From contig NZ_VZOV01000012.1 of NCBI RefSeq assembly GCF_008801915.1, positions 62,001 to 126,000 on the forward strand: a stretch of 64,000 nt of DNA, written 5' to 3'. Of this stretch, positions 3,255 through 36,555 are shown in pieces (within the stretch, counting starts at the first letter, position 1; each line of letters begins with the position of its first letter). This DNA is from Cupriavidus gilardii (GTDB lineage: Bacteria; Pseudomonadota; Gammaproteobacteria; Burkholderiales; Burkholderiaceae). Below the pieces are notes generated by a model. That model searched no databases, was not told where the DNA came from, and saw only the letters and a list, made by a program, of their open reading frames with translations. Made by a program: the position numbers and the translations under genes.

Positions 3255-4424
3255 TCACTCCAGGTTCTTGCGCGTGGCGCGCTTGGCGATCATGAAGAAC
3301 ACAGCCCCGATCGCCGCCATGGCTGCCAGATTGGGCAGGAATACGGCCCAGATGTCGCCGGCGAGAAACACGGTTTTGAGCGAGTCGACGAAGTAGCGCG
3401 CCGGAACCGCTCGGGTGATGGCGCGGATCGGCGCCGGCATGGCATCGATCTCGTACAAAAAGCCCGACAGCATGAAAGCCGGCAGAAAGCCCGTGAACAG
3501 CGCAATCTGCGCCGCCAGGAACTGGTTACGCGCCAGCGACGAGATCAGCAGACCCTGGCCCAGCGCCGGCACCATGAACACGGCGGACAAAAGCAGCAGC
3601 GCCGCCAGCGAGCCACGCATCGGGACGCCGAACACGAACACGGCCAGTGCGGCCGCGCCCAGTGTGGACAGCATGCCGAGCACGAAGTACGGCAGCAGCT
3701 TGCCGATCAATATCTCCGCCACCGAGGCCGGCGTGGAGAGCACCGCCTCCATGGTGCCGCGCTCCCATTCGCGCGCCACCACCAGCGCGGTCAACATGGT
3801 GCCGATGATGGTCATGACGATGGCAATCGCGCCCGGAATCAGCGCGCGCCGGCTTTCCAGCTCGGGGTTGAACCAGTAGCGCGGCTCCAGCACGACGGAC
3901 TGCGCGGGTGCTGCGACATCCAGCCCGGCGCGCCACGTTTGCACCACGCCGCGGGCGTAGTTTTCGACATAGTTGGCGGTGTTTGGGTAGGAGCCATCGG
4001 TGACGATCTGCACCAGCGGCTCGCTGCCGCGCTGGGCCAAGCGTTGTTCGAAATCCTGCGGGATGACGACGTAGCCGCGCAGTGCACCGGAGACGAGCTG
4101 TTCGGCCACTTCGCGGCGGTCATGGGCGAAGTGCGTATTCAGGAAGCGGGTACCCGAAAAGGCGGCGGCCAGCGACTGAGCCGACGCACCGGGCGACTCC
4201 AGTACGACACCGACACGAACCTCCTTGGCGTCCAGCGACACCGCATAAGCGAACAGCAGCAGCAACACCACCGGCAGCACGAAGGCGATCAACAACGTCG
4301 ATGGGTCACGCAACGCCTGGTAACTTTCTTTGGTGACCAAGGCCACCAGGCGCCGCAGGTCAAAACGGCGCAAGTCGCCCTGCATCGGGCCAGCGCCGTC
4401 CTTGTGTTTCTCAACGACGTTCAT
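3255..4424 (-). CDS. ABC-2 type export permease (YbhS-like)
   Basis: A 389-aa inner-membrane protein with the same layout as the downstream permease: one N-terminal membrane segment (about residues 36-55), a long periplasmic loop, then five to six C-terminal membrane segments. The phrase REWERGTMEAVLSTP, conserved in ABC-2 exporters, is present around residue 220. Its ATG at 4424 overlaps the TGA of the ATPase gene. Two non-identical permeases with one fused double ATPase is the YbhFSR arrangement. Confidence 0.9.
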   Translation of the reverse strand: MNVVEKHKDGAGPMQGDLRRFDLRRLVALVTKESYQALRDPSTLLIAFVLPVVLLLLFAYAVSLDAKEVRVGVVLESPGASAQSLAAAFSGTRFLNTHFAHDRREVAEQLVSGALRGYVVIPQDFEQRLAQRGSEPLVQIVTDGSYPNTANYVENYARGVVQTWRAGLDVAAPAQSVVLEPRYWFNPELESRRALIPGAIAIVMTIIGTMLTALVVAREWERGTMEAVLSTPASVAEILIGKLLPYFVLGMLSTLGAAALAVFVFGVPMRGSLAALLLLSAVFMVPALGQGLLISSLARNQFLAAQIALFTGFLPAFMLSGFLYEIDAMPAPIRAITRAVPARYFVDSLKTVFLAGDIWAVFLPNLAAMAAIGAVFFMIAKRATRKNLE

Positions 4425-6196
4425 GCGGCAACCTCCATCTCACGGTCGGCAGACTCCACCAGGTGAATGAAGGCGTCCTCCATGGTCGGGTCGGGATGTT
4501 CGGCATTCGCGGCGGCACGCTTGAGCGCATCGGGCGTGTCGAGCGCGATCAGGCGCGCGCGAGAGAGCATGGCGACGCGGTCGCAGTATTCGGCCTCGTC
4601 CATGAAGTGGGTGGTGACCATGATGGTCACGCCCTTGCGCGCCAGGCCGTTGATGTGGGTCCAGAATTCGCGCCGGGTGATCGGATCCACGCCCGAAGTA
4701 GGCTCATCCAGGAACAACACGGGAGGCCGATGCATGAGCGAGCAGGCCAGCGCCAGGCGCTGTTTGTGCCCCAGCGGCAGGGAATCTGGCGTGGCGGACA
4801 ACCAGTCGCCCAGATCGAAGGTTTCGATCATTTCCCCGATGCGCTCGCGCCGGGTGTTGCCCTCCAACCCGTAGACGCCGGCCGAGAACTCCAGGTTCTG
4901 CTGCACCGACAGCAGGCCGTAGAGCGAGAATTTCTGCGCCATGTAGCCGAGCCGGCTCTTGGCCGCGCCGGTGGCGCGGCGCAGATCGTGCCCCACCACG
5001 TGCGCCTCGCCCGCAGTGGGTTTCAACAGGCCGCACAGCATCTTGAAGGTGGTGGACTTGCCGGCGCCATTGGGGCCGAGCAGACCGAAGATTTCGCCTT
5101 TGCGCACCTCGAAGCTGACCTGGTCGGTGGCGGTGAACTCGCCGAAGCGCTTGGTGAGATTGCGGCAGGAGACGGCAATGTCCGAGCCCAGTTCGACCGG
5201 TGACAGGCGTTCGGCCAGTGTCGAAGTGCCGCCGGGGCCGCCACCGAGGAGATCGATGAAGGCGTCTTCGAAGCGCGCGGGCACCCGGGCCAGCTGCACT
5301 TGGGCACGATCAGCCAGCGACTGGATTTGGCTTGCCTGCGCACCCTCGCGCAGTACCACGCGCACGCCGGCGCCCTGGATCACGCCATCGCTCACGCTCT
5401 CCAGATCGAGTGCCTCGGTCAGAACCGCCCGGCGCTCGGCGCCGACGTTTTCCAGGCGGAAGCTGCGGCCTTCGAGCTGCGCGGTCAGTGCTTGCGGCGG
5501 GCCATCGAACAAGAGCTGCCCCTGGTTCAGCAACAGCACGCTCTCGCAGCGCTCGGCCTCGTCCAGATAGGCGGTAGACCAGACCACGGCCATGCCCTCA
5601 TCGGTCAGTGCCTGCACCATGCGCCACAAATCCTGGCGGCTGACCGGGTCAACGCCCACGCCGGGCTCGTCCAGCAGCAGCACCTTGGGCCGCGCCATGA
5701 GCGCACAGGCCAGGCCAAGCTTCTGCTTCATGCCGCCGGAGAGCTTGCCGGCCAAGCGCTTCGTAAAAGGTCCCAGCCGCGTGAAGTCCAGCAACTCGGC
5801 AAATAGATCGGCATTGCGATCCGCATCCATGCCGCGCAGCTGCGCATACAGGCGCATGTTCTCCATCACCGACAGGTCTTCGTACAGGCCGAAGCGCTGT
5901 GGCATGTAGCCGCTGGCCACGTGAATGGCGTCGTTGTCCTTGACCACGTCATAGCCGGCCAGGGTGACGCGGCCGGCATTGGGCACCAGCAGGCCGGTCA
6001 GAATCCGCATCAGCGTCGTCTTACCGGCTCCGTCCGGGCCGACCAGACCCGTCAGCCGCCCATAGTGGATATGCGCGCTCAAACTCCGCAGGGCTTGCAC
6101 CTTGCCGAAATGCTTGTCCACGCCTTCGATGACGACGGCAGCGGCATCGGCGCTCGCGCTTGTCGGCGTGGCAGTCATGGCTGCGTTTGCCTGCAT
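4421..6196 (-). CDS. Fused double ATP-binding subunit of an ABC exporter (YbhF-like)
   Basis: A 591-aa protein with two ABC ATPase domains. The first has Walker A GPDGAGKTT near residues 53-61 and an intact signature LSGGMKQ. The second has Walker A GPNGAGKST near 371-379 but reads LPLGHKQ where LSGGxxQ is expected, so the second signature is degenerate; both have a Walker B LLLDEP/LFLDEP. The start at 6196 lies one base after the HlyD stop (TGAGATG); an upstream in-frame ATG at 6238 would overlap hlyD and is less likely. It powers the two permeases encoded immediately downstream. Confidence 0.92.
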   Translation of the reverse strand: MQANAAMTATPTSASADAAAVVIEGVDKHFGKVQALRSLSAHIHYGRLTGLVGPDGAGKTTLMRILTGLLVPNAGRVTLAGYDVVKDNDAIHVASGYMPQRFGLYEDLSVMENMRLYAQLRGMDADRNADLFAELLDFTRLGPFTKRLAGKLSGGMKQKLGLACALMARPKVLLLDEPGVGVDPVSRQDLWRMVQALTDEGMAVVWSTAYLDEAERCESVLLLNQGQLLFDGPPQALTAQLEGRSFRLENVGAERRAVLTEALDLESVSDGVIQGAGVRVVLREGAQASQIQSLADRAQVQLARVPARFEDAFIDLLGGGPGGTSTLAERLSPVELGSDIAVSCRNLTKRFGEFTATDQVSFEVRKGEIFGLLGPNGAGKSTTFKMLCGLLKPTAGEAHVVGHDLRRATGAAKSRLGYMAQKFSLYGLLSVQQNLEFSAGVYGLEGNTRRERIGEMIETFDLGDWLSATPDSLPLGHKQRLALACSLMHRPPVLFLDEPTSGVDPITRREFWTHINGLARKGVTIMVTTHFMDEAEYCDRVAMLSRARLIALDTPDALKRAAANAEHPDPTMEDAFIHLVESADREMEVAA

Positions 6197-6197
6197 C

Positions 6198-7241
6198 TCA
6201 ACGCTCCCCCACGCGCGTGCTGGAGGCTGGTTTGGCATCGACCTCTATCGTCACCGGCATGCCTTGACGCAAGGCGGCGTCGCTGTCGGCTTCGTCAATG
6301 ACGATGCGCAGGCGATACACCAGATCCGTGCGCAAGTCCGTTGTCTCCACCGTCTTGGGCGTGAATTCGGCGCGCGGCGAGATGAAACCGATCTGGCCGC
6401 GATAGACCTTTTCCCCGGAATCGCTCTTGACGTGCACCGCGGTGCCGGGTGCGATGCGGCCCAGATCCCGCTCGCCCACGTAGGCGCGCACGTACACGGG
6501 CTTGTCCAGGCTCAGGCTGTAGACCGCACTCTGGCTGGCCACCATGCTGCCGGGTTCACGCACCCGCGCGATGATGGTTCCATCGCTGGGTGCCATGAGT
6601 TCGGTGTCCGCCAGGGACGTGGTGGCTTGCGCTGCGGCTGCCTGCGCGGCTGCAAGGCGAGCCTCTGCTGCGGCGATGTCTTCCTTGCGAAAGCCTTCGG
6701 CTGCTTGCGATAGGGCGGCCTTGGCTGATTCGACGCCCGCGACGGCTTGATCCCTTACGGTGCGGGCGGCATCGACCGTGCGCTGACTGCTGGCACCCGA
6801 TGACAGCAGGCCGCTTTGGCGCTGAAAGTTGCGCTCGGCATCAAGGGCGAGCGCCTGCGCTTTCTTAAGCGCCTCGCGCGCCTGTGTGATTTCCTGCGGC
6901 CGCAGGCCGCGGCGCAGCTTGGCCAGTTCCGCTTGCGCCACCTGCACCTGGGCCTGCGCCGCTGCAAGGGCTTCTCGATACGGCTGCGCGTCAAGCGTGG
7001 CCAGGCGCGCGTCGGCTGTCACGGAATCGCCCTCGTCGAAAGCCATTTGCGTGACGCGCCCGGGCTGGCGGAAAGCCAGTTGAACCTCGCGGATGTCGAC
7101 GTTGCCGTAGAGGCGCAATGCATCTTGATTGTCAAGGCCGCGCGTGAACCAAAACGCCAGTGCACCGCCAAGAACGAGCAGGGCAACAACAATGATCACG
7201 ACCCAACGGGCTTTTTTTGTAGGGAGGTTCGGAGTTGTCAT
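6198..7241 (-). CDS. HlyD-family periplasmic adaptor (YbhG-like)
   Basis: A 347-aa membrane-fusion protein. An N-terminal membrane anchor (about residues 12-32) is followed by a barrel-sandwich half (NVDIREVQLAFRQPGRV), a long alanine-rich coiled-coil hairpin (about residues 85-210) and a C-terminal beta-barrel. It should link the ABC permeases in the inner membrane to the NodT-type outer-membrane duct encoded four genes later. It is followed by the ATPase gene after 1 base. No strong Shine-Dalgarno sequence is seen at 7241. Confidence 0.9.
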   Translation of the reverse strand: MTTPNLPTKKARWVVIIVVALLVLGGALAFWFTRGLDNQDALRLYGNVDIREVQLAFRQPGRVTQMAFDEGDSVTADARLATLDAQPYREALAAAQAQVQVAQAELAKLRRGLRPQEITQAREALKKAQALALDAERNFQRQSGLLSSGASSQRTVDAARTVRDQAVAGVESAKAALSQAAEGFRKEDIAAAEARLAAAQAAAAQATTSLADTELMAPSDGTIIARVREPGSMVASQSAVYSLSLDKPVYVRAYVGERDLGRIAPGTAVHVKSDSGEKVYRGQIGFISPRAEFTPKTVETTDLRTDLVYRLRIVIDEADSDAALRQGMPVTIEVDAKPASSTRVGER

Positions 7242-7268: not shown

Positions 7269-7694
7269 TCACTGCTCGCGCGTGGCCGGTGCATTCGCCG
7301 TTGATCGACGCCAAGCAATGGCCGCGATGCCGACCCACACCAGCGTGCGCAGCGTCATGGCAATGACCGTGCGCCGCTCCCAGGCGCCGCCGAGCGCCAC
7401 ATGCACTCCGAAGGCCAGGAATACGAGTGCCGTCGCAACTGCGATGGCCATGGCCAGCCATGTGGCCCAGCGCCGACGCATCCACAACCCGACGCCAGCG
7501 ATGACGTAGGCGAACCCGGCCAGAAAGTTGAACCAAAGCACGAAGGGCACATAGCTTCCGGCCGCGTCACGCCCTGCACCGTCATAAAACAGGACGGCGC
7601 CGCCTTCCCGGATGGTCATCAGGCCAAAACCGATGGCAATCAGGGCGATCACACGCATCCAGATGCCGCGCCCGTTGTGTGCTGTCATGTTCAT
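7269..7694 (-). CDS. Small four-segment membrane protein of unknown function
   Basis: A protein of about 141 aa with four hydrophobic stretches, a basic loop (MRRRW) between the second and third, and a short charged tail. No family was recognised. Start choice is uncertain: ATGs occur at 7760 (overlapping the TetR stop as ATGA), 7694 and 7688. The last two follow GGGAG by 2 and 8 bases, so 7688 may be the real start. It lies between the repressor gene and hlyD and is probably co-transcribed with the exporter. Confidence 0.7.
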   Translation of the reverse strand: MNMTAHNGRGIWMRVIALIAIGFGLMTIREGGAVLFYDGAGRDAAGSYVPFVLWFNFLAGFAYVIAGVGLWMRRRWATWLAMAIAVATALVFLAFGVHVALGGAWERRTVIAMTLRTLVWVGIAAIAWRRSTANAPATREQ

Positions 7695-7756
7695 TGCTCC
7701 CGGTTCTTCGGAGGGTTTGCTGGATCGTCGTGCCGTTTGAGGACTGGACGGGTGCT

Positions 7757-8365
7757 TCATGTGCCGCTTTCGATGCCACGGCGATAGATGGCGAACACGG
7801 CGGGCGCATCGCGACGAATCCGACTGACCTTGCCGGCCAGCAGGGACTGCATGACCAGCCCCTGGATCGTGCCGATGAACAGCACGGCGGCGGCATCCAC
7901 GTCCAGATCCGCATCCAGCTCGCCCTGCGCCTTGCCCGCTTCCATCAGGCGGCGCAGGCGCTGCTCGTACTGGCGGATCAGGGTTTGCACCATGCGCTTG
8001 GCGAGCGTCTCGCCAGAGCGCTGCAACTCTCCGAACAGCATGCGTGGCACGCCCGGGTGCTTGGACACGAAGTCGATGTGCGTCATGAACATGGCTTCGA
8101 GCGCCGCGCCAGGAGATGCGGCGCCTTCGGCCGCCTTGTCCACGCTGACCAGAAGGCGTTCGCCGACCCAGGACATCGTGGCTTCCACGATGGCTTCCTT
8201 GTTGGGGAAGTGACGAAACAACCCGCCCTGCGTCAAGCCCATTCGGTCGGCAATCGCGGTGGTCGTGATCTCGGCCGGGTTTTGTTCGGCTGCCAGATCG
8301 ACCACGGCTTGCACTGTGGCTGCGCGCCGATCTTCGGCGGACAGGTACTGGGGGCGTTGGCTCAC
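7757..8365 (-). CDS. TetR-family repressor of the ABC efflux operon
   Basis: A 202-aa protein with an N-terminal TetR helix-turn-helix (ITTTAIADRMGLTQGGLFRHF, about residues 33-53) and an all-helical ligand-binding half. The start is a GTG at 8365, preceded by GGAG at 8 bases; no usable in-frame ATG exists upstream. It is the first gene of the minus-strand run that ends in the MBL hydrolase. Known: in E. coli the TetR-type CecR (YbiH) controls ybhG-ybhFSR, so autogenous control of the same kind of exporter is likely here. The palindrome at 8384-8405 is the probable operator. Confidence 0.88.
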   Translation of the reverse strand: MSQRPQYLSAEDRRAATVQAVVDLAAEQNPAEITTTAIADRMGLTQGGLFRHFPNKEAIVEATMSWVGERLLVSVDKAAEGAASPGAALEAMFMTHIDFVSKHPGVPRMLFGELQRSGETLAKRMVQTLIRQYEQRLRRLMEAGKAQGELDADLDVDAAAVLFIGTIQGLVMQSLLAGKVSRIRRDAPAVFAIYRRGIESGT

Positions 8366-8383
8366 GATTCAGACTCCATGTAG

Positions 8384-8405
8384 TAAGAGACTTATAACTA
8401 TCTTA
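8384..8405. promoter_or_regulatory. Probable TetR operator, 22-bp imperfect palindrome
   Basis: The 22 bases begin TAAGAGACTTA and end TAACTATCTTA. Compared with their own reverse complement, 18 of 22 positions agree. The site ends 19 bases upstream of the GTG start of the TetR gene, the normal position for autorepression. It lies in a short AT-rich stretch within GC-rich surroundings. Binding is inferred. Confidence 0.6.
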
Positions 8406-8625
8406 GCACGCAAAATCACCATGACGCAAGATCGGAAACTTTGCGGGTGAGGCAGGACTGCGGACCCTTTCATATGAAGAACGGATCGGTCAACTTGATG
8501 CAACTCAAGAAGCTGGATCGCTTACAAGGCAGATCGGAAGATGCGTGATCGTTGGGCCTGGAGCTTCAGCCGCGGCAGTGATTGCGTTTGTGAAGGATGA
8601 AAACGTTTGCGCCCCTGCGGAAGGC

Positions 8626-8653
8626 TTGCAACTTTTCCTGCAAGCGATAAGAT
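8626..8653 (+). promoter_or_regulatory. Candidate sigma-70 type promoter for phaC
   Basis: TTGCAA (8626-8631) and TAAGAT (8648-8653) are separated by 16 bases, and the phaC ATG follows 34 bases after the -10 box. An 8-base-spaced inverted repeat, CTTGCA/TGCAAG (8625-8630 and 8639-8644), covers the -35 box and could bind a regulator. Matches to consensus are moderate. Confidence 0.4.
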
Positions 8654-8687
8654 AGTAATATGTTACTCGCTAAATGAAAGGCTGGAA

Positions 8688-10445
8688 ATGAGCAACGTCG
8701 CAATACATGGCAGGGCCGATCTGACGCAGCCCGAAGTCTGTCGCCCTGACGCCCTGGATACGCTTGCGAACGCCTGGCGGGCGCGCAGCACGGGTGGGTT
8801 GTCGCCGGCGGCTGGCCTGCTGGCTTGGTACGACTGGGCGCTGCACCTGAGCCTTTCGCCAGGCAAGCAACGCAGCTTGATGGAAAAGGGCTTGCACAAA
8901 CAGCAACGCCTTGCGCGCTATGCCTTGCGTGTTGCCAGTGCGCACGACTGTCCGACCTGTATCGAGCCCCTGGAGCAGGATCGGCGCTTCGCCGCCCCGG
9001 CTTGGCAGCAGTGGCCCTTCAACGTGATCCACCAAGGCTTTTTGCTGCAGCAGCAGTGGTGGCACAACGCCACCACGGGCGTGCGTGGCGTGTCGCGCCA
9101 TCACGAGAACATGGTCACGTTCGCCGGGCGGCAGTGGCTGGACATGTGGTCGCCTTCGAATTTCATCTGGACCAACCCCGAGGTGCTGCACGCCATCACG
9201 CAAAGCGGTGGCGCAAACCTGTGGCGCGGCGCCATGAACTTTCTGGAAGATGCAAGACGCCTCGCGCTCGACGATGCGCCTGCAGGGGTCGAAGGGTTCG
9301 AGGTGGGCAAGGACGTGGCGATCACTCCAGGCAAGGTGGTGTTTCGAAACCACCTGATCGAGTTGATTCAGTACTCACCCACGACGCCGGATGTGCATGC
9401 GGAGCCGGTACTGATCGTGCCCTCCTGGATCATGAAGTACTACATCCTCGACCTGTCGCCGCACAACTCGATGGTGAAGTACCTGGTCGATCAGGGGCAC
9501 ACGGTGTTCATCCTTTCATGGAAGAACCCGACGGCGGCCGATCGCGACCTCGGTCTGGAGGATTACCGCTGGCTGGGGGTCATGGACGCGTTGGATGCGG
9601 TCACGGCCATCGTGCCCGAGCGCAAAGTGCAAGCAGTGGGCTATTGCCTGGGCGGCACCTTGCTCACGATCGCCGCCGCCGCGATGGCGCGCGATGGCGA
9701 CGAGCGGCTGCAAAGCCTGACGCTGTTGGCGTCGGAGATCGATTTCCGCGAATCGGGCGAGATCGCGCTCTTCATCGACGACAGTCAACTGGCCTGGCTT
9801 GAAGCCGGTATGTGGGACAAGGGCTATCTCGACGGCAGGCAGATGGCCGGCGCGTTCCAGATGCTCAACTCGCGCGACCTGATCTGGTCGCGACGGGTGC
9901 GTGAATACCTGTTGGGTGAGCGCCAGACCTTCAATGACCTGATGGCCTGGAATGCCGACGTGACGCGCATGCCGTACCGCATGCACAGCGAGTACCTGCG
10001 GCGCTTGTATCTGGACAACGACCTGGCCGAGGGGCGCTACCGCGTCGGCGGGAGACCCGTGGCGCTGGCCGACATCGAGGTGCCCATGTTCATCGTCGGC
10101 ACGGTGCGCGATCACGTCGCTCCCTGGCCATCCGTGTACAAGATGCATCTGCTCAGTGATGCGGAGCTGACCTTCGTGCTGACCAGCGGCGGGCACAACG
10201 CCGGCGTCGTCAGCGAGCCAGGGCACCCCCGGCGCAGCTTCCAGATTGCGACCCGTGCCGCTGGCGATCGCTATATCGATCCGCAATTGTGGCGTGCCGA
10301 GACCCCGCTGAACGAAGGCTCCTGGTGGCCGGCATGGCAGCAATGGTTGGCCGGGCGCTCGGCCGGGCGCGTCGCTCCGCCTGCCATGGGCGGGACGCAA
10401 CCACCGCTTGGCGATGCGCCGGGAACCTATGTGGCCATGCGATGA
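8688..10445 (+). CDS. phaC: Class I poly(3-hydroxyalkanoate) synthase
   Basis: A 585-aa enzyme that polymerises (R)-3-hydroxyacyl-CoA on the granule surface. The N-terminal PhaC domain is followed by an alpha/beta-hydrolase core with the lipase-like box GYCLGG. The expected triad is visible as Cys320, Asp475 (TVRDHVAPW) and His503 (GGHNAGV), close to the positions in Cupriavidus necator PhaC. The length fits class I. The start at 8688 has AAGG 8 bases upstream; the frame stays open to 8607 without a better ribosome site. The phasin and reductase genes follow on the same strand. A phaA thiolase is not present nearby. Confidence 0.95.
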   Translation: MSNVAIHGRADLTQPEVCRPDALDTLANAWRARSTGGLSPAAGLLAWYDWALHLSLSPGKQRSLMEKGLHKQQRLARYALRVASAHDCPTCIEPLEQDRRFAAPAWQQWPFNVIHQGFLLQQQWWHNATTGVRGVSRHHENMVTFAGRQWLDMWSPSNFIWTNPEVLHAITQSGGANLWRGAMNFLEDARRLALDDAPAGVEGFEVGKDVAITPGKVVFRNHLIELIQYSPTTPDVHAEPVLIVPSWIMKYYILDLSPHNSMVKYLVDQGHTVFILSWKNPTAADRDLGLEDYRWLGVMDALDAVTAIVPERKVQAVGYCLGGTLLTIAAAAMARDGDERLQSLTLLASEIDFRESGEIALFIDDSQLAWLEAGMWDKGYLDGRQMAGAFQMLNSRDLIWSRRVREYLLGERQTFNDLMAWNADVTRMPYRMHSEYLRRLYLDNDLAEGRYRVGGRPVALADIEVPMFIVGTVRDHVAPWPSVYKMHLLSDAELTFVLTSGGHNAGVVSEPGHPRRSFQIATRAAGDRYIDPQLWRAETPLNEGSWWPAWQQWLAGRSAGRVAPPAMGGTQPPLGDAPGTYVAMR

Positions 10446-10553
10446 CATGGCAAAACGCGTCCACGAACACATCACTCAACTTTCATCGGGTCGTTGCGCA
10501 GGCATGGCCCACACCCGCCCCAGAGGGGCACATCACCACCGTGGAGAATTGAA

Positions 10554-10997
10554 ATGAACAACGAACTGCCCATCCAACTCTACAAGGCCAATGCCGAGTT
10601 GCAGCTTCAGATCACTCGCTTGCTGCAAGAAAGCGGCCACCACTGGTTCGAAGCCATGCAACAGCTCAGTGCTGGCGGCGTGCTGGAGACCACCTCGCGC
10701 ATCCAGAACCTCCAACAGGCGGCGGACTGGCAGGCGCTTGCCACCTTGCCATCCGAGGTGTTCTGGCGATTGTGTCAGGGCCGTATGGGCGATACACAGG
10801 CGGTCGGCCAGGCTGCTGCCAAGAGCCAGGCGGCATTCGCTGATGGCCTGCGCGAGGCGCTGACGACCTGGCAGGCATCCGTCTCCGAAGTATTCGGCGC
10901 CAGCGGTGGCACAGCCTCTTTCGCGCAGTTTTGTCAGCAATGGACGCAGCCCTGGAGCGCGCCAGGCGCCGCGCCTCAGGGCAAGGCCAAAAAGTAA
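10554..10997 (+). CDS. Phasin-family PHA granule-associated protein
   Basis: A 147-aa, largely helical, Gln/Ala-rich protein (ELQLQITRLLQESGHHWFEAM...) without membrane segments, as expected for phasins that coat PHA granules. The start at 10554 has GGAGA 6 bases upstream; the longer frame from 10494 lacks support. Position between phaC and the acetoacetyl-CoA reductase gene, 10 bases before the latter, supports the assignment. Sequence alone does not show whether it is PhaP- or PhaM-like. Confidence 0.8.
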   Translation: MNNELPIQLYKANAELQLQITRLLQESGHHWFEAMQQLSAGGVLETTSRIQNLQQAADWQALATLPSEVFWRLCQGRMGDTQAVGQAAAKSQAAFADGLREALTTWQASVSEVFGASGGTASFAQFCQQWTQPWSAPGAAPQGKAKK

Positions 10998-11007
10998 GGA
11001 GGTGCAC

Positions 11008-11754
11008 ATGAGCAGTTCCGGACGAACCGCCCTGGTCACTGGCGGCAATCGCGGTCTTGGCGCGGCCATTGCCCGCGCCCTGGACGACGCGGGCCACCGC
11101 GTCATCATCACGCACACGCCCGGCAACGATAAGGTCGCTGCCTGGCTCGACGCGCAGGACACCAAAGGCTACCGGTTCGTGGCCTACGGCGTCGATGTCG
11201 GCGACTGGGAATCGACCCAGGCTTTGGCGCGTCAGATTCAGGCGGACGGCTACCACGTTGACATCCTGGTGAACAACGCCGGCATCACCCGTGACGCGAC
11301 CTTGCGCAAGATGGACAAATCCGGCTGGGACGCCGTGCTGCGCACCAACCTGGACTCCATGTTCAACGTCACCAAGCCGTTCATCGACCCGATGGTGGAG
11401 CTTGGCTGGGGACGCATCATCAATATCTCGTCGATCAACGGCAGCAAGGGCCAGTTCGGCCAGACCAATTACTCGGCGGCCAAGGCCGGCGTGCACGGCT
11501 TCACCAAGGCGCTGGCGCAGGAGGTGGCGCGCAAGGGCGTGACGGTCAACACCGTCTCGCCGGGCTACCTGGCCACCGAGATGGTGATGGCGGTGCGTGA
11601 GGATGTGCGCCAGAAGATCATCGATGCGATTCCAGTCGGCCGCCTCGGTCATCCGGACGAGATCGCGGCGCTGGTGGCCTTCATCGCCAGTGAGGCTGCC
11701 GCCTTCATGACGGGCAGCAACGTGGCGATGAACGGTGGCCAGCACATGTCATGA
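11008..11754 (+). CDS. phaB: Acetoacetyl-CoA reductase (SDR family)
   Basis: A 248-aa short-chain dehydrogenase expected to reduce acetoacetyl-CoA to (R)-3-hydroxybutyryl-CoA for PHA synthesis. Visible: the nucleotide-binding motif TGGNRGLG near residues 12-19, NNAG near 90, and the active site SSINGSKGQFGQTNYSAAK with the Ser-Tyr-Lys set. The start at 11008 follows an excellent AAGGAGGT. Known PhaB proteins are about 246 aa. FabG is the alternative reading, but the synthase and phasin neighbours favour PhaB. Confidence 0.92.
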   Translation: MSSSGRTALVTGGNRGLGAAIARALDDAGHRVIITHTPGNDKVAAWLDAQDTKGYRFVAYGVDVGDWESTQALARQIQADGYHVDILVNNAGITRDATLRKMDKSGWDAVLRTNLDSMFNVTKPFIDPMVELGWGRIINISSINGSKGQFGQTNYSAAKAGVHGFTKALAQEVARKGVTVNTVSPGYLATEMVMAVREDVRQKIIDAIPVGRLGHPDEIAALVAFIASEAAAFMTGSNVAMNGGQHMS

Positions 11755-11822
11755 GTTGGGAGAACCCGCGGCCCTCGCGGGCGGTTTCCGACGCGGCAGT
11801 CACCAACTCCTGGAGGAGTTCC

Positions 11823-12386
11823 ATGTATTCCCGATTTCTGGTGCCGCTGGACGGTAGTTCCACATCCTTCCTGGCCCTCGATCATGCGGCAGAACTGGCA
11901 CGCCTGAGCGGCGCCACCGTGATCTTGCTGCATGTCGTCGAACCAACCCGGCATAGTACGGGCTTCGAGCGTCCCGAGGTCTACATCAAGGATGTCCGCC
12001 CACGCTTCCTCGAAGCCGGCCAGGCGTTGCTGGATGAAGCTGCGAGTCGGCTTCGTCGGAACGGAATTGCCACAGAGACGGTGCTGCTTGAAAGCGGCAC
12101 CGCACGCGTGTCGGAACAGATCGCACAGCAGGCCGAGGTGAGCGATTGCGACTTGGTCATCCTGGGCACCCATGGGCGTCGCGGCATGAACCGGCTGCTG
12201 CTGGGCAGCGATGCAGAGCAAGTGGCGCGCATCGCACCAGTTCCGGTAATGCTGGTGCGCCAGTCGAGCCGAGATGGTGACCAGACACGCTCAGCCGCAC
12301 GGACGCCAGTCGAGGCCAGCGACAACGCCGGTACGCAACGCCGGCATCCAACTCGCGCAAACAAGCTAAAAAAACCACATGAATGA
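11823..12386 (+). CDS. Universal stress protein, UspA family
   Basis: A 187-aa protein with a typical Usp fold: N-terminal YSRFLVPLDGS and the C-terminal ATP-binding motif GTHGRRGMNRLLLGS (G-x2-G-x9-G-S) near residues 118-132. The last 45 or so residues are a basic, low-complexity tail beyond the usual family length. The start at 11823 has GGAGGAG 5 bases upstream. It overlaps the next gene by 8 bases, so the two are probably coupled. Usp genes beside PHA and phosphotransacylase genes suggest a low-oxygen or starvation module (inference). Confidence 0.9.
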   Translation: MYSRFLVPLDGSSTSFLALDHAAELARLSGATVILLHVVEPTRHSTGFERPEVYIKDVRPRFLEAGQALLDEAASRLRRNGIATETVLLESGTARVSEQIAQQAEVSDCDLVILGTHGRRGMNRLLLGSDAEQVARIAPVPVMLVRQSSRDGDQTRSAARTPVEASDNAGTQRRHPTRANKLKKPHE

Positions 12387-13353
12387 ACAAGCCCCTGAGG
12401 GCGTTCGCGCCGATCCTCCAAGTGGTGTCGAGCGTCTTATCGCCCATGTCAAAACCTTGGCCCCGGTTCGCACTGCGGTGGTGCACCCTTGTGACGCGCT
12501 CAGCTTGGGCGGTGCCTTGGACGCGCGCGATGCCGGCGTCATCACGCCAGTATTGGTGGCGCCGCTCGGCAAGCTGCGTGCCGTTGCGGCCGACACGGGG
12601 TTGGAACTGGGAGACAGCGAGGTCGTCGATGTGCCGCACAGCCACGCTGCAGCGGCCATCGCCGCCCGGCTGGCTGGCAAGGGCGAGGTGCAGGCACTGA
12701 TGAAAGGCAGCTTGCACAGCGACGAGTACCTGGGTGCCATCCTGGCGCCCGAAGCCTGCCTGCGCACCGAGCGCCGATTGACGCACTGCTACATCATGCA
12801 GACGGCCAGCTACCCACGGCCCTTCATCATCACCGACGCCGCCATCAACATCGCTCCAACGCTCGAAATCAAGGCCGACATCGTGCGCAACGCCATCGAC
12901 TTGGCGCACGCCATCGGCATTGCCGAGCCCAAGGTAGCGATCCTGGCGGCGGTCGAGACCGTCAACCCGCGCATGCTTTCGACCCTGGACGCAGCGGCAC
13001 TGTGCAAGATGGCCGATCGCGGCCAGATTGCCGGAGGTGTGCTCGACGGGCCGCTGGCCTTTGATAACGCCGTCTCTCCCGATGCCGCGCGCGTCAAGGG
13101 CATCAAGTCGAACGTGGCCGGGCAAGCTGACATCTTGGTCGTTCCCGACCTGGAAAGCGGCAACATGCTGACCAAGCAACTGGAATACATGGGCCAAGCC
13201 GACAGTGCGGGGATCGTGATGGGCGCGCGTGTGCCGATTGTGCTCACCAGTCGCGCGGACTCGCGCCGCACGCGAATAGCCTCATGCGCCATTGCGCTGA
13301 TCTTGGCGCATCGTCAGCGTGCTCTTGTTCAGGGCAAAGAGAACCGCGTATGA
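12379..13353 (+). CDS. Phosphate acetyl/butyryltransferase
   Basis: A 324-aa PTA_PTB-family enzyme that exchanges CoA of an acyl-CoA for phosphate. The family signature is present in SNVAGQADILVVPDLESGNM and MGARVPIVLTSRADS near the C-terminus. There is no N-terminal enoyl-CoA hydratase domain, unlike the bifunctional forms. It overlaps the usp gene by 8 bases. No acetate or butyrate kinase gene is beside it, so either the partner is elsewhere or the enzyme feeds acyl phosphate to another pathway. The substrate (acetyl or butyryl) cannot be decided. Confidence 0.9.
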   Translation: MNEQAPEGVRADPPSGVERLIAHVKTLAPVRTAVVHPCDALSLGGALDARDAGVITPVLVAPLGKLRAVAADTGLELGDSEVVDVPHSHAAAAIAARLAGKGEVQALMKGSLHSDEYLGAILAPEACLRTERRLTHCYIMQTASYPRPFIITDAAINIAPTLEIKADIVRNAIDLAHAIGIAEPKVAILAAVETVNPRMLSTLDAAALCKMADRGQIAGGVLDGPLAFDNAVSPDAARVKGIKSNVAGQADILVVPDLESGNMLTKQLEYMGQADSAGIVMGARVPIVLTSRADSRRTRIASCAIALILAHRQRALVQGKENRV

Positions 13354-13426: not shown

Positions 13427-15454
13427 ATGATCCACGTAATCCACGTGATCCTTGCATTTTTCTGGCGATGGTTGATCGTGATCGCTGCCGCGTTTGCGCT
13501 CGGTGGTTGCGCGGTTGTCAGTGAATTCAAACCTTCTGTCGCTGTACGCGCGATGACGCCGGATGAATACGTCGCCCTACGACGCGGCGATCTCCTCGGC
13601 AAAGGCAAACTCAGCGCCCTGACCGTGCAGACGATTCGCGTTACCGGGCTCGATGAACGGGCCTGCGCAGCGAACGCCTCGCTCACTTGTATCGAGGCGT
13701 TGACCATGATGAAGGACTTGGATGGAGAAACCAGGTTGTCGGCACTGGCTGAACTATGGCTGCAGCATGCCATGTCGATCTCGACAACAGTCCCAAACAG
13801 TCGCACCGCTTCTACTTCCGCTTGGATCGAGACAGCTCGGCACGCTTACGCGTATCTCTTTTTCACTGGGCGCTCGCCCGGCGAGCGCGCGTTTGAGGAG
13901 CGGCAGACGCAGGTGCGCGATTGGTACAACTACGCGGTGCAAAAAACGGTCACGCAATTGTTTGGCCTACAGCACCAAGCACTTCGTGCGCATGCTGGCG
14001 GAGCCAAAGCGGTATTCCGCTTGGGTGACTGGGTTTTGCGAGTCGACTTGAACGCCCGGCTGCCCAATGATGCGACCACGCCACGCGAGTTGCTGCCTGC
14101 GAACGTTCTGGCATTCCAAGGCCTGCGCGGCATCTATCGCAGGGATGGCTTGGGTGCCGAATTGGTGGCCGTAACGGATGCAGAGCCAATATCACTGAAC
14201 GACTCAGACGGGTCTCCCGCCGGCAACGAGCGCCCGAGGACATTTCCCGCCTGGAGCGAAATGCCAACGCCCAACGTGACGGTAGTGCTTCGCTTTGATG
14301 CACTCACCGTCGATGAGCTGCTTGCCTCGCATGAACTCATCGTCGGTGTGTATGACCCCCTGGTCCAGGACTATTTGCAACTCCACGGCCAACGCGTTCC
14401 GCTGGCTGGTAACTTTACGGCTGGCTACGGCTTGTGGTTGGCGCGTTCGGGGTTCAACCAGCAATCCGTGCGAGGGTTGTTTGGGCGTGAGCGTGGCATC
14501 GATCACCCGCATCTGTATCTGATGCAGCCGTTCGACCCGCGGCGGCGCATCATCGTGATGATGCATGGATTGGCGAGCAGCCCCGAAGCATGGGTCAACG
14601 TTGCCAATGAGCTTCTGGCCGATGAAGAGCTGCGATGCGAATTCCAAGTGTGGGAGGTCTATTACCCCACGAATATGCCTGTACCAGCCAGTCATGCAGC
14701 AATCCGCCAAGTTCTGGCGGCCGCTTTGCATCACTTCGACCCTGATGAGGAAACCTTGGCTTCCCACGGGCTGGTGTTGATTGGTCACAGCATGGGAGGA
14801 ATGCTGGCGCGGCTGATGGTCTCCACGGCTGACCAGCAACTGTGGAAGTGGGCCGCATCGGACCCCAGGATCGATCTGGATCGTCTTGGGAGCACCCGCT
14901 CTCAACTTGACCCTCTTTTGCGCTTTCGGCCATTTCCAGGTGTTGATCGCGTGGTATTCGTTGCCACACCGCACCGTGGAACCGTGGTTGCCGGACAAGG
15001 ACTTGGGCGTTGGGTTGCCGGATTGATCCGCTTGCCATTGACGCTGCTGTCAACCCTCGGCGACGCCTTCCCGGCGCGCGCGGAGACCACGGCACACGCC
15101 ACGATCTTGCAGAACATCCCCAACAGCATTGACCAACTCGACGAAAACGACCCCTTCGTCAAAGCTACGAGCGAGCTTCCAATCTCGGATCAGGTGGCTT
15201 ATCACTCGATCGTTGCGAGGCGGCAGGCTAACGGTCCTCTCGCTGAATCGGACGATGGTTTGGTTCCCTATCGAAGCGCGCATCTGGATGGCGCCGAGTC
15301 GGAAAAAATCATCGTGTCCGGACACAGCGTGCAGGAAACCGCCGCATCCATCGTCGAAATCCGGCGAATCCTGCGCGAAGATATTTCCAAGCATCGGTTG
15401 ACAGCCGCTGATTCGTCTTCCGTCCGGGGAGGGAGCTGCCCAGTCCAACGGTGA
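13427..15454 (+). CDS. Lipoprotein with an alpha/beta-hydrolase (lipase-like) domain
   Basis: A 675-aa protein. The N-terminal hydrophobic segment ends in a lipobox (FALGGC), with Cys28 the expected lipidation site, so it should be anchored in a membrane facing the periplasm or outside. The first 370 residues match no family I know. The C-terminal half is an esterase/lipase-like alpha/beta hydrolase with MMHGLASSPEAW (oxyanion region) and GHSMGG carrying the nucleophile Ser455, then VATPHRGT. It is transcribed with the preceding cargo genes but 73 bases later. A role in lipid or ester cleavage is inferred from the fold only. Confidence 0.85.
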   Translation: MIHVIHVILAFFWRWLIVIAAAFALGGCAVVSEFKPSVAVRAMTPDEYVALRRGDLLGKGKLSALTVQTIRVTGLDERACAANASLTCIEALTMMKDLDGETRLSALAELWLQHAMSISTTVPNSRTASTSAWIETARHAYAYLFFTGRSPGERAFEERQTQVRDWYNYAVQKTVTQLFGLQHQALRAHAGGAKAVFRLGDWVLRVDLNARLPNDATTPRELLPANVLAFQGLRGIYRRDGLGAELVAVTDAEPISLNDSDGSPAGNERPRTFPAWSEMPTPNVTVVLRFDALTVDELLASHELIVGVYDPLVQDYLQLHGQRVPLAGNFTAGYGLWLARSGFNQQSVRGLFGRERGIDHPHLYLMQPFDPRRRIIVMMHGLASSPEAWVNVANELLADEELRCEFQVWEVYYPTNMPVPASHAAIRQVLAAALHHFDPDEETLASHGLVLIGHSMGGMLARLMVSTADQQLWKWAASDPRIDLDRLGSTRSQLDPLLRFRPFPGVDRVVFVATPHRGTVVAGQGLGRWVAGLIRLPLTLLSTLGDAFPARAETTAHATILQNIPNSIDQLDENDPFVKATSELPISDQVAYHSIVARRQANGPLAESDDGLVPYRSAHLDGAESEKIIVSGHSVQETAASIVEIRRILREDISKHRLTAADSSSVRGGSCPVQR

Positions 15455-15463: not shown

Positions 15464-15492
15464 TTGATTTTCCGAAGCATAGTAAGTAATAT
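15464..15492 (+). promoter_or_regulatory. Candidate promoter upstream of the LysR gene
   Basis: TTGATT (15464-15469) and TAATAT (15487-15492) are separated by exactly 17 bases in an AT-rich patch. The -10 box lies inside the inverted repeat at 15477-15506. Transcription would read into the LysR gene at 15646 with a leader of about 150 bases. Confidence 0.55.
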
Positions 15493-15506
15493 ATCACTTA
15501 CTATGC
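15477..15506. repeat. Perfect 11-bp inverted repeat over the LysR-gene promoter
   Basis: The arms GCATAGTAAGT (15477-15487) and ACTTACTATGC (15496-15506) are exact reverse complements around an 8-base AT-rich centre. The repeat overlaps the -10 box of the candidate promoter, the usual place for an operator. No U-run follows, so a rho-independent terminator for the lipoprotein gene is less likely. Confidence 0.7.
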
Positions 15507-15645
15507 AGTCTTGGCTGAATCACTTGCATCGCACCTTGGGCATTTTCGGTTTGGAAGGACAGCGTTCTTGGTGTTCTCACATGCGTGGAGCATCCGGCTG
15601 CATCCCACGGGACGTGGACGATCTGAAACGCTAGGAAGGGCAGAA

Positions 15646-16572
15646 GTGGAGTTACGCCACCTTCGATGCTTTACCGCAGTCGCGGAAGAGCTTCATTTTG
15701 CTCGGGCTGCTGAACGGTTACACATCGACCAATCGCCGCTATCTCGCACCATCAAGGAGCTGGAGGAAGACCTTGGTGCGCGCCTGTTCGTTCGTACTAC
15801 CCGCAGCACGCAATTGACCCGTGCGGGTCGATTGCTGTTGGAGCACGTACCGCGCATCTTCGCTGCGCTGGAGCAAGCACGCGATAGCGTCAGGTCTGCC
15901 TCCAATGGCTATCACGGGCAATTGCGCATTGCCTTGTCCGATGGCATCACGCCATCCCGCTTGCCGGCGCTACTTGCGCAGTGCCGCGAAGAAGACCCCG
16001 AGGTCGAGGTTCGGTTATTTGAAGTTTCGATGGCCCAGCAAATCAAGGGTCTGCACGATGAGCTATACGACGCAGGATTTTCGATGGCCGAAGACGTAGG
16101 TGATGGCATCGTGGTCACACCTGCTTGGGAGGATGAGTTGATGGTGGCGGTGCCAGCTCGCCATCCCGTTCTGGCCTTCAAGCAGATTCCGCTGGAGGAG
16201 GTTCTGCACTACCCGCTGGTGCTGGGCGACCCGTCGATTTGCGAAGGGCATGCACGTCAGGTCGATCGAATCTTGCGCAAGTACGAACGGGAGCCGCTCA
16301 TAGTTCAGCACGTTGCCTCTTTTGACCTCATGATGACCTTGGTTTCCGCCGGGCTGGCCTTGGGCTTGGCCGGAGCGGCACACGTTGCGTCCAGCCGTGA
16401 GCTTGGTGTAGTGGCTCGGCCGTTGGCGGGTAAACCGCCAATGCTGACGACCTATCTACTGTGTCGGGATACGGAGGCTCCAGAGATGTTGGCCCGATTC
16501 ATCGACCGGGTAGCCTCCATTGATTCAGCAGAACCTCTGAGCAGTATCGGGAATCCCCGATCCACCCGATGA
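15646..16572 (+). CDS. LysR-family transcriptional regulator at the edge of the conjugation core
   Basis: A 308-aa regulator with an N-terminal winged helix (ELRHLRCFTAVAEELHFARAAERLHIDQSPLSRTIKELEEDLG) and a periplasmic-binding-like effector domain. A GTG start at 15646 is chosen because AGGAAGGG precedes it by 5 bases and ELRHLRCF is the usual LysR N-terminus; the frame is open to 15511 without support. It lies 13 bases before the eex-like lipoprotein gene. LysR genes at this position are common in Tn4371-type elements. Targets are unknown. Confidence 0.9.
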   Translation: MELRHLRCFTAVAEELHFARAAERLHIDQSPLSRTIKELEEDLGARLFVRTTRSTQLTRAGRLLLEHVPRIFAALEQARDSVRSASNGYHGQLRIALSDGITPSRLPALLAQCREEDPEVEVRLFEVSMAQQIKGLHDELYDAGFSMAEDVGDGIVVTPAWEDELMVAVPARHPVLAFKQIPLEEVLHYPLVLGDPSICEGHARQVDRILRKYEREPLIVQHVASFDLMMTLVSAGLALGLAGAAHVASSRELGVVARPLAGKPPMLTTYLLCRDTEAPEMLARFIDRVASIDSAEPLSSIGNPRSTR

Positions 16573-17055: not shown

Positions 17056-19065
17056 ATGCAAGGGACGAACGTGCTGTTCGGTCAGATCGCCGTCGTATTC
17101 GGCACCGTGATCGCCGGCGTGTGGGGCGCCACACAATGGACAGCAGCGGCCCTTGGCTATCAAGTACGCCTTGGCTCGCCCTGGTTCGACTTCCTTGGCA
17201 CGTCGATCTACCACCCGTGGAAGCTGTTTGAGTGGTGGTTCTTCTTCGGCGCCTATGCGCCGGAGGTCTTCGACACTGGCGGCACCATTGCGGGCGCCAG
17301 CGGTATGGCCGCCGTGGGCGTTGCCATCGCCATGTCGGTCTGGCGTTCGCGCCAAGCGCGCCTCGTCACCACCTACGGCTCTGCGCGCTGGGCTAACGCG
17401 CAGGACATTCGCAAGGCGGGCCTCACGCAGCCGGCCGGCGTGTTCCTCGGCCAGCACGACCGCCAGTACCTGCGGCATGAAGGTCCGGAACACGTCCTGA
17501 CCTTCGCGCCTACGCGCTCGGGCAAGGGCGTGGGCCTGGTGGTGCCCACTTTGTTGAGCTGGCTAGCATCGGCCGTCATCCACGACATCAAGGGCGAGAA
17601 CTGGAGCATCACCGCAGGCTGGCGCTCGCGCTTCTCGCATTGCCTGCTGTTCAACCCGACCGATGCGCAGTCGGCGGCCTACAACCCGCTGCTGGAGGTG
17701 CGGCGCGGCGCGCACGAAGTGCGCGACGTGCAGAACATCGCGGACATCCTGGTCGATCCCGAAGGCGCGCTGGAGAAGCGCAACCATTGGGAAAAAACCT
17801 CGCACGCGCTGCTGGTCGGCGCCATCCTGCATGTGCTCTACGCGGGCGAGGACAAGACGCTGCGCGGCGTCGCCAACTTCCTCTCCGATCCAGCCAGCCC
17901 ATTCGAGCTGACCTTGCATCGGATGATGACCACGCCGCATCTCGGCGATGGGACGCATCCGGTCGTGGCCTCGGCTGCGCGCGAAGTGCTCAACAAGTCG
18001 GAGAACGAGCGTTCCGGCGTGTTGAGCACCGCCATGTCGTTCCTCGGCCTGTACCGCGATCCCACGGTGGCCGAAGTCACATCGCGCTGTGACTGGCGCA
18101 TCGCCGACCTGATCGCCGCCGAGCATCCGGTGTCGTTGTATCTGGTGGTTCCGCCTTCGGACATTTCGCGGACGAAGCCGCTCATTCGCCTGATCCTCAA
18201 CCAGATCGGGCGGCGGCTCACGGAATCACTCGATGGCTCCGACGGCATCGAGCGTCGCCACAAGCTGTTGCTGATGCTCGACGAGTTTCCGGCACTCGGG
18301 CGGCTCGATTTCTTCGAGACGGCGCTGGCCTTCATGGCCGGCTACGGCATCCGCAGTTTCCTCATCGCGCAGTCGCTCAACCAGATCGACAAGGCGTATG
18401 GGCAGAACCATTCGATCCTCGACAACTGCCATGTGCGCGTGACGTTCGCCACGAACGACGAACGTACCGCCAAACGGATTTCCGAGACGCTGGGCACCGC
18501 GACCGAACTGCGCGCGCAGCGCAACTACGCCGGCCACCGGCTGGCGCCGTGGCTGGGGCACCTCATGGTGTCGCGCCAGGAAACGGCCCGTCCGCTGCTG
18601 ACGCCGGGCGAAGTCATGCAACTGCCACCCGATGAAGCGGTGGTGATGGTCTCCAGTGTGGCGCCGATCAAGGCCAAAAAGCTGCGCTATTACGCGGACG
18701 CCAATTTCAAGCGGCGCGTGCTGCCCCCGCCCACGCTGGCGGACGGGCTGTACGCAGACACGCCGCCGTCTCGGCCCGACGACTGGAGCGGGCTGGCGAT
18801 TCCGTCGGTGCCCGCAGCGTCTGCCACGGCATCTGCCGATGGCCTGGAGAACTTGGGTTCGGCCGACGACGGCGGCCCACGCCGTCAGCCCGAGCTAACT
18901 GAGGCCGTCGCCTACGACCCCGGGCTGGCCGCGCCCGTGGCCGACCTTGGGCTGCTCGATGACGACGACGACCTTCCGCTTCCACTTCCTCGCCAGCTCG
19001 ATCCGGCCATGCAGCGCACGGCCCGGCTGGCATCGCTGAACCCCAACGACGGAATCGACCTATGA
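17056..19065 (+). CDS. traG: Type IV coupling protein TraG (VirD4 family)
   Basis: A 669-aa ATPase that brings the relaxase-DNA complex to the mating channel. Membrane segments lie in the first 100 residues. Walker A is APTRSGKGVG near residues 150-159, and Walker B is LLLMLDEFPALG near 405. The length is normal for TraG of trb systems. GGAGG precedes the start by 7 bases. Its TGA overlaps the ATG of the RHH gene (ATGA). The C-terminal 100 residues are acidic and of low complexity. Confidence 0.95.
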   Translation: MQGTNVLFGQIAVVFGTVIAGVWGATQWTAAALGYQVRLGSPWFDFLGTSIYHPWKLFEWWFFFGAYAPEVFDTGGTIAGASGMAAVGVAIAMSVWRSRQARLVTTYGSARWANAQDIRKAGLTQPAGVFLGQHDRQYLRHEGPEHVLTFAPTRSGKGVGLVVPTLLSWLASAVIHDIKGENWSITAGWRSRFSHCLLFNPTDAQSAAYNPLLEVRRGAHEVRDVQNIADILVDPEGALEKRNHWEKTSHALLVGAILHVLYAGEDKTLRGVANFLSDPASPFELTLHRMMTTPHLGDGTHPVVASAAREVLNKSENERSGVLSTAMSFLGLYRDPTVAEVTSRCDWRIADLIAAEHPVSLYLVVPPSDISRTKPLIRLILNQIGRRLTESLDGSDGIERRHKLLLMLDEFPALGRLDFFETALAFMAGYGIRSFLIAQSLNQIDKAYGQNHSILDNCHVRVTFATNDERTAKRISETLGTATELRAQRNYAGHRLAPWLGHLMVSRQETARPLLTPGEVMQLPPDEAVVMVSSVAPIKAKKLRYYADANFKRRVLPPPTLADGLYADTPPSRPDDWSGLAIPSVPAASATASADGLENLGSADDGGPRRQPELTEAVAYDPGLAAPVADLGLLDDDDDLPLPLPRQLDPAMQRTARLASLNPNDGIDL

Positions 19066-21236: not shown

Positions 21237-21251
21237 GGGGAGGACGCCGCG

Positions 21252-24469: not shown

Positions 24470-24480
24470 CGGAGGCTGCC

Positions 24481-26156: not shown

Positions 26157-26173
26157 TCTTCAAGGAGAACCCC

Positions 26174-27879: not shown

Positions 27880-27881
27880 CC

Positions 27882-29371: not shown

Positions 29372-29462
29372 CCGTCTTTCCGCGCCGCTGCGCCGAATGG
29401 ATGAGATTTTGGATATGTTGCCATCATCGTATTCAAACTACGACTGGGTACGCCATATTAAA

Positions 29463-29491: not shown

Positions 29492-29492
29492 C

Positions 29493-34231: not shown

Positions 34232-34244
34232 CGACGTATCCTGG

Positions 34245-36534: not shown

Positions 36535-36555
36535 GATGCCCTATCTCCCCGTGGA

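Follow-up and report, generated by a model that had tools for sequence, protein, structure and literature searches.

A predicted TetR-controlled exporter and polyhydroxybutyrate cargo on a Tn4371-like integrative conjugative element inserted at guaA in Cupriavidus gilardii

A 64,000 bp stretch of the Cupriavidus gilardii genome (contig C12, NZ_VZOV01000012.1, positions 62001–126000; hereafter the window, to which coordinates without a contig prefix refer) was found to carry phaC, a phasin gene, phaB, usp and pta in a single row (8688–13353). Their genetic context suggests that these five genes are one half of a metabolic cargo, probably arranged as two operons switched jointly by a TetR-family regulator, on a Tn4371-like integrative conjugative element (ICE) that inserts at guaA. 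Genes in the 5.79 Mb genome (115 contigs) were identified from lists of open reading frames (ORFs) and from family scans with Pfam and NCBIfam models and their cut-offs. For comparison, 80 named loci were kept out of 544 relatives.

The rightward row, on the forward strand, begins with phaC, encoding a polyhydroxyalkanoate (PHA) synthase (8688–10445; PF07167, PhaC_N 195.7 bits), followed by genes for a phasin (10554–10997; PF09361 (Phasin_2), marginal at 25.8 bits against a cut-off of 24.9), an acetoacetyl-CoA reductase (phaB, 11008–11754; adh_short, with TIGR01829 over cut-off), a universal stress protein (usp, 11823–12386 in an ORF open from 11751; PF00582) and a phosphotransacylase of the Pta/Ptb family (pta, 12379–13353; PTA_PTB, with PRK08190 and PRK11890 over cut-off). 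The initial annotation had placed the five genes on one strand directly before a conjugation module. The genes and their strand were confirmed, but the interval between pta and traG, which starts at 17056, holds an alpha/beta hydrolase gene (13427–15454, forward strand; DUF676 over and Abhydrolase models under cut-off), a gene for a LysR-family regulator (15511–16572, forward strand; PF00126, PF03466) and a short ORF. The hydrolase has a lipoprotein-like N terminus, the lipobox being judged by eye. In an alignment with the solved synthases 5hz2 and 9knj, Cys, Asp and His residues that are presumably the catalytic triad were conserved in the cargo PhaC, which scored 533 bits against the class I model TIGR01838 (cut-off 622.65). 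The cargo Pta was below the cut-off of the Ptb model TIGR02706, although among solved structures a phosphate butyryltransferase is closest to it.

A second row runs leftward, on the reverse strand, from the gene for a TetR-family regulator (7757–8365; PF00440), the proposed switch. It continues with an adjoining gene for a 163-aa protein that has no family match and is conserved across many loci (7269–7760), and with genes for an HlyD-type membrane fusion protein (6198–7241; PF13437, PF16576), an ABC exporter ATPase with two nucleotide-binding domains (4421–6238; PF00005 twice, the RbbA model being below cut-off), two ABC-2 exporter permeases (3255–4424 and 2132–3250; both PF12698) and an outer membrane efflux protein (591–2300; PF02321). 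Beyond this outer-membrane channel are a short ORF and genes for an RNase-like beta-CASP protein, a LOG-family protein, an LpxR-like protein, a hypothetical protein, acetate kinase (AckA) and a phosphoketolase-family protein (XFP, 138.5 bits, and XFP_N, 46.2 bits, both over the Pfam cut-offs). The two divergent rows, from TetR and from phaC, lie between the relaxase gene and traG, and each is predicted from strand and short gaps to be an operon. Pta had appeared as an odd piece in the initial annotation; however, it has partners, as ackA and the phosphoketolase-family gene are on the same element.

The two rows are tied together by operator-like sites. When the gap between the TetR gene and phaC was aligned for the window and 22 loci, GATAGTAATAnGTcACTtaCT appeared twice, in inverted orientation. 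The conserved site is 21 bp long. A site matrix was built from 10 other loci with the window group excluded; the training sites were the best matches to a template drawn from the alignment, so that the matrix is circular for the 10 loci but not for the window group. Across 126 kb of the contig, three places scored above 28 bits (28.4–33.0), one before the TetR/exporter operon (8382–8402, reverse strand; 28.4 bits), one before phaC (8651–8671, forward strand; 33.0 bits; aligned in the window and 22 loci) and one before the LysR gene (15482–15502, forward strand; 29.7 bits). The next place scored 12.3 bits, and the best of 30 shuffles 16.4 bits. A pattern fitted to the three sites had four matches in the whole 5.79 Mb genome, all at those three places, and none in the reversed control.

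When 32 loci were scanned at 17 bits, a site was present in 31, and both ends of the gap carried one in 24 of the 24 loci with TetR beside phaC. Fourteen of these 24 had no part in building the matrix; however, L042, L043, L062, L048, L053 and L063 are 96.7–99.8% copies of training loci, and thus the independent test is provided by the window group and L070. The site before LysR was found in 8 of 8 scanned loci holding this LysR orthologue and was absent from L041-type loci with a 49% LysR, and in more distant Paracoccus-type loci the matches upstream of phaC were weaker, none exceeding 19.1 bits. From the position of the sites and their co-conservation, the TetR protein is predicted to bind them, acting as a single switch through all three. 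Hexamers resembling −35/−10 elements, picked by eye beside the sites, were rejected as a consensus promoter as a promoter scan did not back them. In Kaistia-type loci, four operator-like sites (L050:427, 8886, 9707 and 9966) and two TetR genes were present, the additional sites preceding an exporter operon that is located elsewhere with its own TetR gene.

The five-gene set was found in the same order in nine of the 80 named loci (L033–L039, L047 and L048), indicating that the association is not due to chance. The phosphoketolase-family (XFP) protein is encoded at 91–97% in all nine carrier genomes, in eight of them on the phaC contig, and with the exporter and AckA also on the same element, the package is larger than the five genes originally proposed. 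In five of the nine loci traG is downstream, and in the other four the contig ends before that point. TrbE is present at 90% or more in seven of these genomes; the other two are metagenome-assembled genomes, G300 with no TrbE and G303 with a 25% match. Among these nine, four of them cut off before traG and two of those four from the metagenome-assembled genomes that lack a close TrbE, the full set was thus not seen in a setting without trb/traG genes, the case that would have refuted the initial reading. For the core of phaC, phasin and phaB with the TetR gene, without usp and pta, that case was found, as several genomes with this core have no close TrbE and carry it on another type of ICE (see below). 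A pta-ackA pair adjoins phaC in L139, L066, L073, L049 and L050 and is ~7 kb from phaC in L138. The Pta proteins of these pairs are of more than one type, including a fusion with a MaoC domain, and the recurrence argues for a functional link.

The absence of phaA noted in the initial annotation was borne out, as a tblastn search of contig C12 with the host PhaA returned chance-level pieces only. The genome encodes six thiolases over cut-off, every one on other contigs, and a host thiolase is therefore available to the cargo, as had been suggested. The host also has a chromosomal phaC-phaA-phaB set on contig C4, its PhaC being 37% identical to that of the cargo.

The cargo is located in an element of ~60.3 kb (C12 ~33.03–93.31 kb), of which positions 1–31309 are within the window. 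A tyrosine integrase gene is at C12:33340, left of the window, with guaA directly to its left, and the left part of the element further encodes RadC, an AbiC-type protein, DUF932, ParB-like and DUF736 proteins, a methyltransferase and an AAA protein, DUF2958 and RovC-like proteins, RepA, ParA, DUF2840 and an RlxS-like relaxase that is below the cut-off of its model. The cargo is followed by traG, a gene for an RHH protein and a trbB-C-E-J-L-F-G-I conjugation module (17056–29147, forward strand; NF010450 TraG, PRK13873 TrbE and TIGR02782 TrbB over cut-off). TrbC, VirB8 (TrbF) and TrbI were assigned by Pfam, and TrbJ, TrbL and TrbG by position only, TrbJ having no family match. An AbiEi-AbiEii pair (29397–31153, forward strand; PF11459, PF08843) lies near the right end, which is marked by an att repeat (31290–31309, forward strand) that is identical to the end of guaA at 17 of 20 positions and re-encodes its C terminus, IEWE-stop. 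The 17/20 match at C12:93290 includes an exact repeat of 12 bp, and the two copies of the att repeat were placed at C12:33032 and 93294. The AbiE pair, the AbiC-type gene and the D12 methyltransferase with its AAA protein (L114, L115) may represent phage defence carried by the ICE.

The guaA region was matched in 60 of 60 genus genomes searched, and the flanks were compared in five. In G145, G079, G346 and G159 the match ends exactly at the guaA stop (C12:33047), and in G184 it continues to C12:33494, inside the integrase gene. The match resumes at C12:94300 in G079 after 5.4 kb of other DNA, at 102869 in G346 and at 105238 in G145, and none is thus a clean empty site. At the right end, DNA identity with a copy in Diaphorobacter nitroreducens ends at C12:93309.

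Tn4371-family elements are defined by a quadripartite structure in the available part of the description (PMC2864759). The integrase, maintenance, accessory and conjugative modules of this layout are all found here, with the integrase, RadC-like gene, RepA/ParA maintenance genes, relaxase, accessory region and traG-trb genes in common and a size within the family range of 42–70 kb. However, the insertion site here is the guaA 3′ end, marked by a GATCGAGTGGGA repeat, and no TTTTTCAT att repeats were found at its ends, the single TTTTTCAT in C12 1–126000 being at 15138, outside the element. It was therefore called Tn4371-like and not a strict member, and its gene content and boundaries mark it as a predicted ICE inserted at the guaA 3′ end. 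In Table 4 of a survey of the family, 6 of 18 elements are also given as NP (PMC2789088). The description of the five genes as mobile cargo thus holds, as integrase, RepA, ParA, relaxase, traG-trb and the guaA att repeat enclose them and a near-identical copy is found in another genus.

That copy, in D. nitroreducens DSM 15985, is part of an element that likewise reaches from integrase to AbiE genes at guaA. It is identical to the C12 element at 99.1% over 21,759 bp, 99.98% over 11,147 bp, 99.9% over 11,019 bp and 97.6% over 6,853 bp, whereas the GuaA proteins of the two hosts are only 82% identical, and these values show a recent transfer of the element between genera. In Dechloromonas, PhaC is 97% and GuaA 77% identical. 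As further signs of a guaA location, a single contig holds guaA and the XFP gene in Thauera phenylacetica, and in Thauera terpenica a GuaA with a 29-residue extra end is encoded on a trbE-bearing contig. In Acidovorax benzenivorans, guaA and the element are on separate contigs, giving no view of the insertion. No plasmid-borne copy covering 80% of the query was found in 72,556 plasmid records; 26 records had a match, at 60–80% identity over at most 25% of the query.

A second vehicle was identified in L040–L044 and L062, where the TetR gene, phaC, phasin and phaB are kept but usp and pta are not, and where the exporter is present in all but the truncated L040. Two of these genomes had no TrbE match, and the best match in the other four was 26% identical (1.2e-32). 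L041–L044 and L062 have a common sharp right end after 14.45 kb that is 97.1–98.8% identical to L042. Left of the core, the Dyella stretch (L154) is ~97% identical to those of Stutzerimonas and Extensimonas over 20 kb and 96.6–99.1% identical to those of Zoogloea and Betaproteobacteria SCN1 over 18.6 and 15.8 kb. Families of PFGI-1-type ICEs (TopB, PFL_4669, STY4528 and PFGI-1 ParB) were over cut-off in Dyella, where the scan was made, and the other four were assigned by near-identical DNA. This second type, PFGI-1/ICEclc, has the same TetR-exporter-phaC core on another backbone, and the comparisons indicate that the phaC core moves between vehicles of two ICE types. In Parapusillimonas granuli (L061), phaC-phasin-phaB-usp-hydrolase are placed behind trbI, and in a relative from the genus (G249, L135) the core is beside a recombinase-like ORF, not beside trb. 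Two ICE relatives, G271 (L137) and G298 (L006), have a reduced cargo variant in which phaC was not matched and phasin-phaB-usp remain, with equal match scores although they represent two genera.

In the proposed working of the cargo, TetR would bind the sites before its own gene, phaC and LysR, and would be released by a signal, perhaps a substrate of the exporter or a metabolite formed under stress. Acetyl phosphate may then be produced by the phosphoketolase-family protein from pentose phosphate, AckA would convert it to ATP and acetate, and Pta would turn it into acetyl-CoA. A host thiolase would then form acetoacetyl-CoA, to be stored by PhaB and PhaC as polyhydroxybutyrate (PHB) with consumption of NAD(P)H. 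The cargo may have the overflow and stress role suggested in the initial annotation. If the reading is correct, PHB synthesis can spread across bacterial orders and classes together with an exporter that shares its switch, not as a bare phaCAB operon, and two unrelated ICE families have acquired this core. With only three sites in a 5.8 Mb genome, the link between export, acetyl phosphate and carbon storage is directly testable, and strains that carry the element and are available from public culture collections, D. nitroreducens DSM 15985 among them, could serve as laboratory models.

Several observations count against a jointly switched metabolic cargo of this kind. The phosphoketolase-family protein scored 134 bits, and the NCBIfam phosphoketolase cut-offs are at least 777. 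It also has Lys where two solved enzymes align the His of HNG, an active-site residue. Lys was found at this position in nine of ten XFP-family members, and the tenth (L151) had no match to the regular expression; the Lys-bearing proteins appear to form a subclade whose phosphoketolase activity is doubtful. A further phaC match was present in 16 of 16 carriers checked. These carriers are therefore not naive hosts that gain PHA synthesis through the cargo, and a benefit from PHB is not obvious. A thiolase over cut-off was present in 15 of the 16, the other being SCN1 (L062, G328; second ICE type), which has none over the TIGR01930 cut-off. Because some variants lack pta, the hydrolase gene or the XFP gene, the metabolic half is less tightly kept than the TetR-exporter-phaC-phasin-phaB part. 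Furthermore, G271 has traG, phaB and the LysR orthologue, yet a scan of 20 kb revealed no operator-like site, L055 has phaC but no site at 17 bits, and a promoter scan of 8300–8760 found no sigma-70-like promoter. In SCN1, which has two phaC matches, no source of 3-hydroxyacyl-CoA is apparent, although an incomplete assembly could account for this.

The five genes could instead work alone as a carbon-overflow and stress package on a host thiolase, and they are contiguous in a host that has thiolases. However, they are embedded in a larger conserved two-operon cargo with the exporter, AckA and XFP, the operator-like sites tie both operons, and the checked carriers already have phaC. This explanation is very unlikely, and the five genes were rejected as an independent unit because the conserved unit is larger. 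Selection might also act primarily on the exporter, with the PHB and acetyl-phosphate genes as co-regulated helpers or passengers. Multidrug and metal pumps are frequent cargo of Tn4371 elements in the text available (PMC2789088), and the TetR and exporter genes are, together with the phaC core, among the most conserved parts of the loci. Export or tolerance as the primary function is nevertheless unlikely, as phaC-phasin-phaB are kept in L049, L050 and L061, where the exporter is rearranged or was not seen, and the phaC site is present in all three. A further improbable reading is that the leftward operon is a conjugation-spread route from RNA to energy, with TetR turning on a starvation programme together with export. 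The beta-CASP RNase would degrade cellular RNA, the LOG-type phosphoribohydrolase would free ribose 5-phosphate from nucleotides, host enzymes would convert this to xylulose 5-phosphate, and the phosphoketolase-family enzyme would form acetyl phosphate, yielding ATP via AckA or PHB via Pta, PhaB and PhaC. Consistent with such a route, the beta-CASP and phosphoketolase-family genes adjoin genes for AMP/thymidine phosphorylase and PRPP synthetase in L145–L147 and L149, and the phosphorylase alone in L150 or LOG in L151 is a neighbour. However, L145–L147 are near-copies that count once, L144 and L148 have the beta-CASP and phosphoketolase-family genes but no such partners within the 8.5 kb covered, L136 combines the phosphoketolase-family gene with AckA only, and none of the beta-CASP, LOG and XFP proteins reaches the cut-off of an equivalog model. 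The phosphorylase, beta-CASP protein and PRPP synthetase of the L145 neighbourhood (L145:92–6313) are 93–99% identical in L145, L146 and L147, which are from different genera, and the phosphorylase/beta-CASP/phosphoketolase/PRPP synthetase neighbourhood is thus probably mobile too. The beta-CASP protein of the window element (L116:941–2353) scored 410 bits against the type VII CRISPR Cas14 model (cut-off 800), which is a family resemblance; by that model it is not a CRISPR gene.

Control by oxygen has also to be considered, as an FNR/ANR-like box with one mismatch (TTGATGCAACTCAA; 8495–8508, forward strand) is ~180 bp before phaC. The cargo would then be an anoxic-persistence module similar to the lxa locus of Burkholderia cenocepacia, with FNR/ANR activating PHB synthesis and acetate formation at low oxygen. 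Among the 79 named loci with enough upstream sequence for the count, an exact TTGATN4ATCAA box was found upstream of the phaC homologue in 8, far above the shuffle level (mean 0.01, largest 1), and a box with at most one mismatch in 24 (shuffle mean 0.80, largest 4). Thus, FNR-like sites are common in the vicinity of phaC homologues of this family. In the available text, lxa likewise encodes PhbB, a phosphate acetyl/butyryl transferase (Pta/Ptb), six universal stress proteins and a metallo-beta-lactamase superfamily protein in a cluster, but differs in being a 50-gene cluster up-regulated at low oxygen, with no ICE described and without the terms 'phosphoketolase' or 'acetate kinase' (PMC6127331). 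The PHA synthase BCAL1863 is listed in a table of a micro-oxia study (PMC3759415), and low-oxygen responses in Burkholderia are the subject of this and two further papers, as far as their available parts show (PMC9104464, PMC3966863). However, a box with at most one mismatch is present in only 9 of 32 loci of the near group, and L040–L044 and L062 have no box yet retain the TetR-type sites. Because some members of the family lack the box, FNR control was kept as a rival and not as the main switch, and we regard it as rather unlikely.

PhaD is a TetR-type regulator of medium-chain-length PHA genes in Pseudomonas, and resembles the cargo TetR, compared by description and not by sequence, in that PHA genes are under TetR-family control. 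However, the cargo TetR is encoded in an exporter operon, and the sites presumed for it are confined to the mobile element. The Escherichia coli CecR(YbiH)-YbhGFSR operon has the order TetR, HlyD, two-domain ABC ATPase and two ABC-2 permeases, which the cargo matches, in order only, if the extra 163-aa gene is allowed for. Unlike that operon, the cargo has this added gene and an outer-membrane channel, and its presumed TetR sites reach phaC and LysR.

There are precedents both for PHA genes that lie on islands and for their control by TetR-type regulators. The PHB genes of a Pseudomonas extremaustralis island were also horizontally acquired but form phaRBAC (with phaA) and phbFPX clusters, and the terms 'phosphate acetyl' and 'universal stress' are absent from the main text of that report (PMC4041789). 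In the text available for Azospira suillum, PHB is described under perchlorate respiration, and its authors report nothing that points to horizontal transfer around the phaC genes (PMC13044030). Cargo listed for Tn4371 elements includes unspecified 'Lipid metabolism' in R. pickettii 12J and a UspA homologue in PACS171b, and the main text does not contain 'hydroxybutyr-', 'polyhydroxy-' or 'phosphoketolase' (PMC2789088, in the part available). Judged by titles and abstract openings, no description of a TetR-exporter-PHB cargo with shared sites was found in the open-licence literature searched.

To the right of the element, the host region at 32306–41973 encodes a TctC receptor, a CoA-transferase of family III, an aldehyde dehydrogenase and several LysR, TetR and AraC regulators, and is perhaps an acid degradation cluster.

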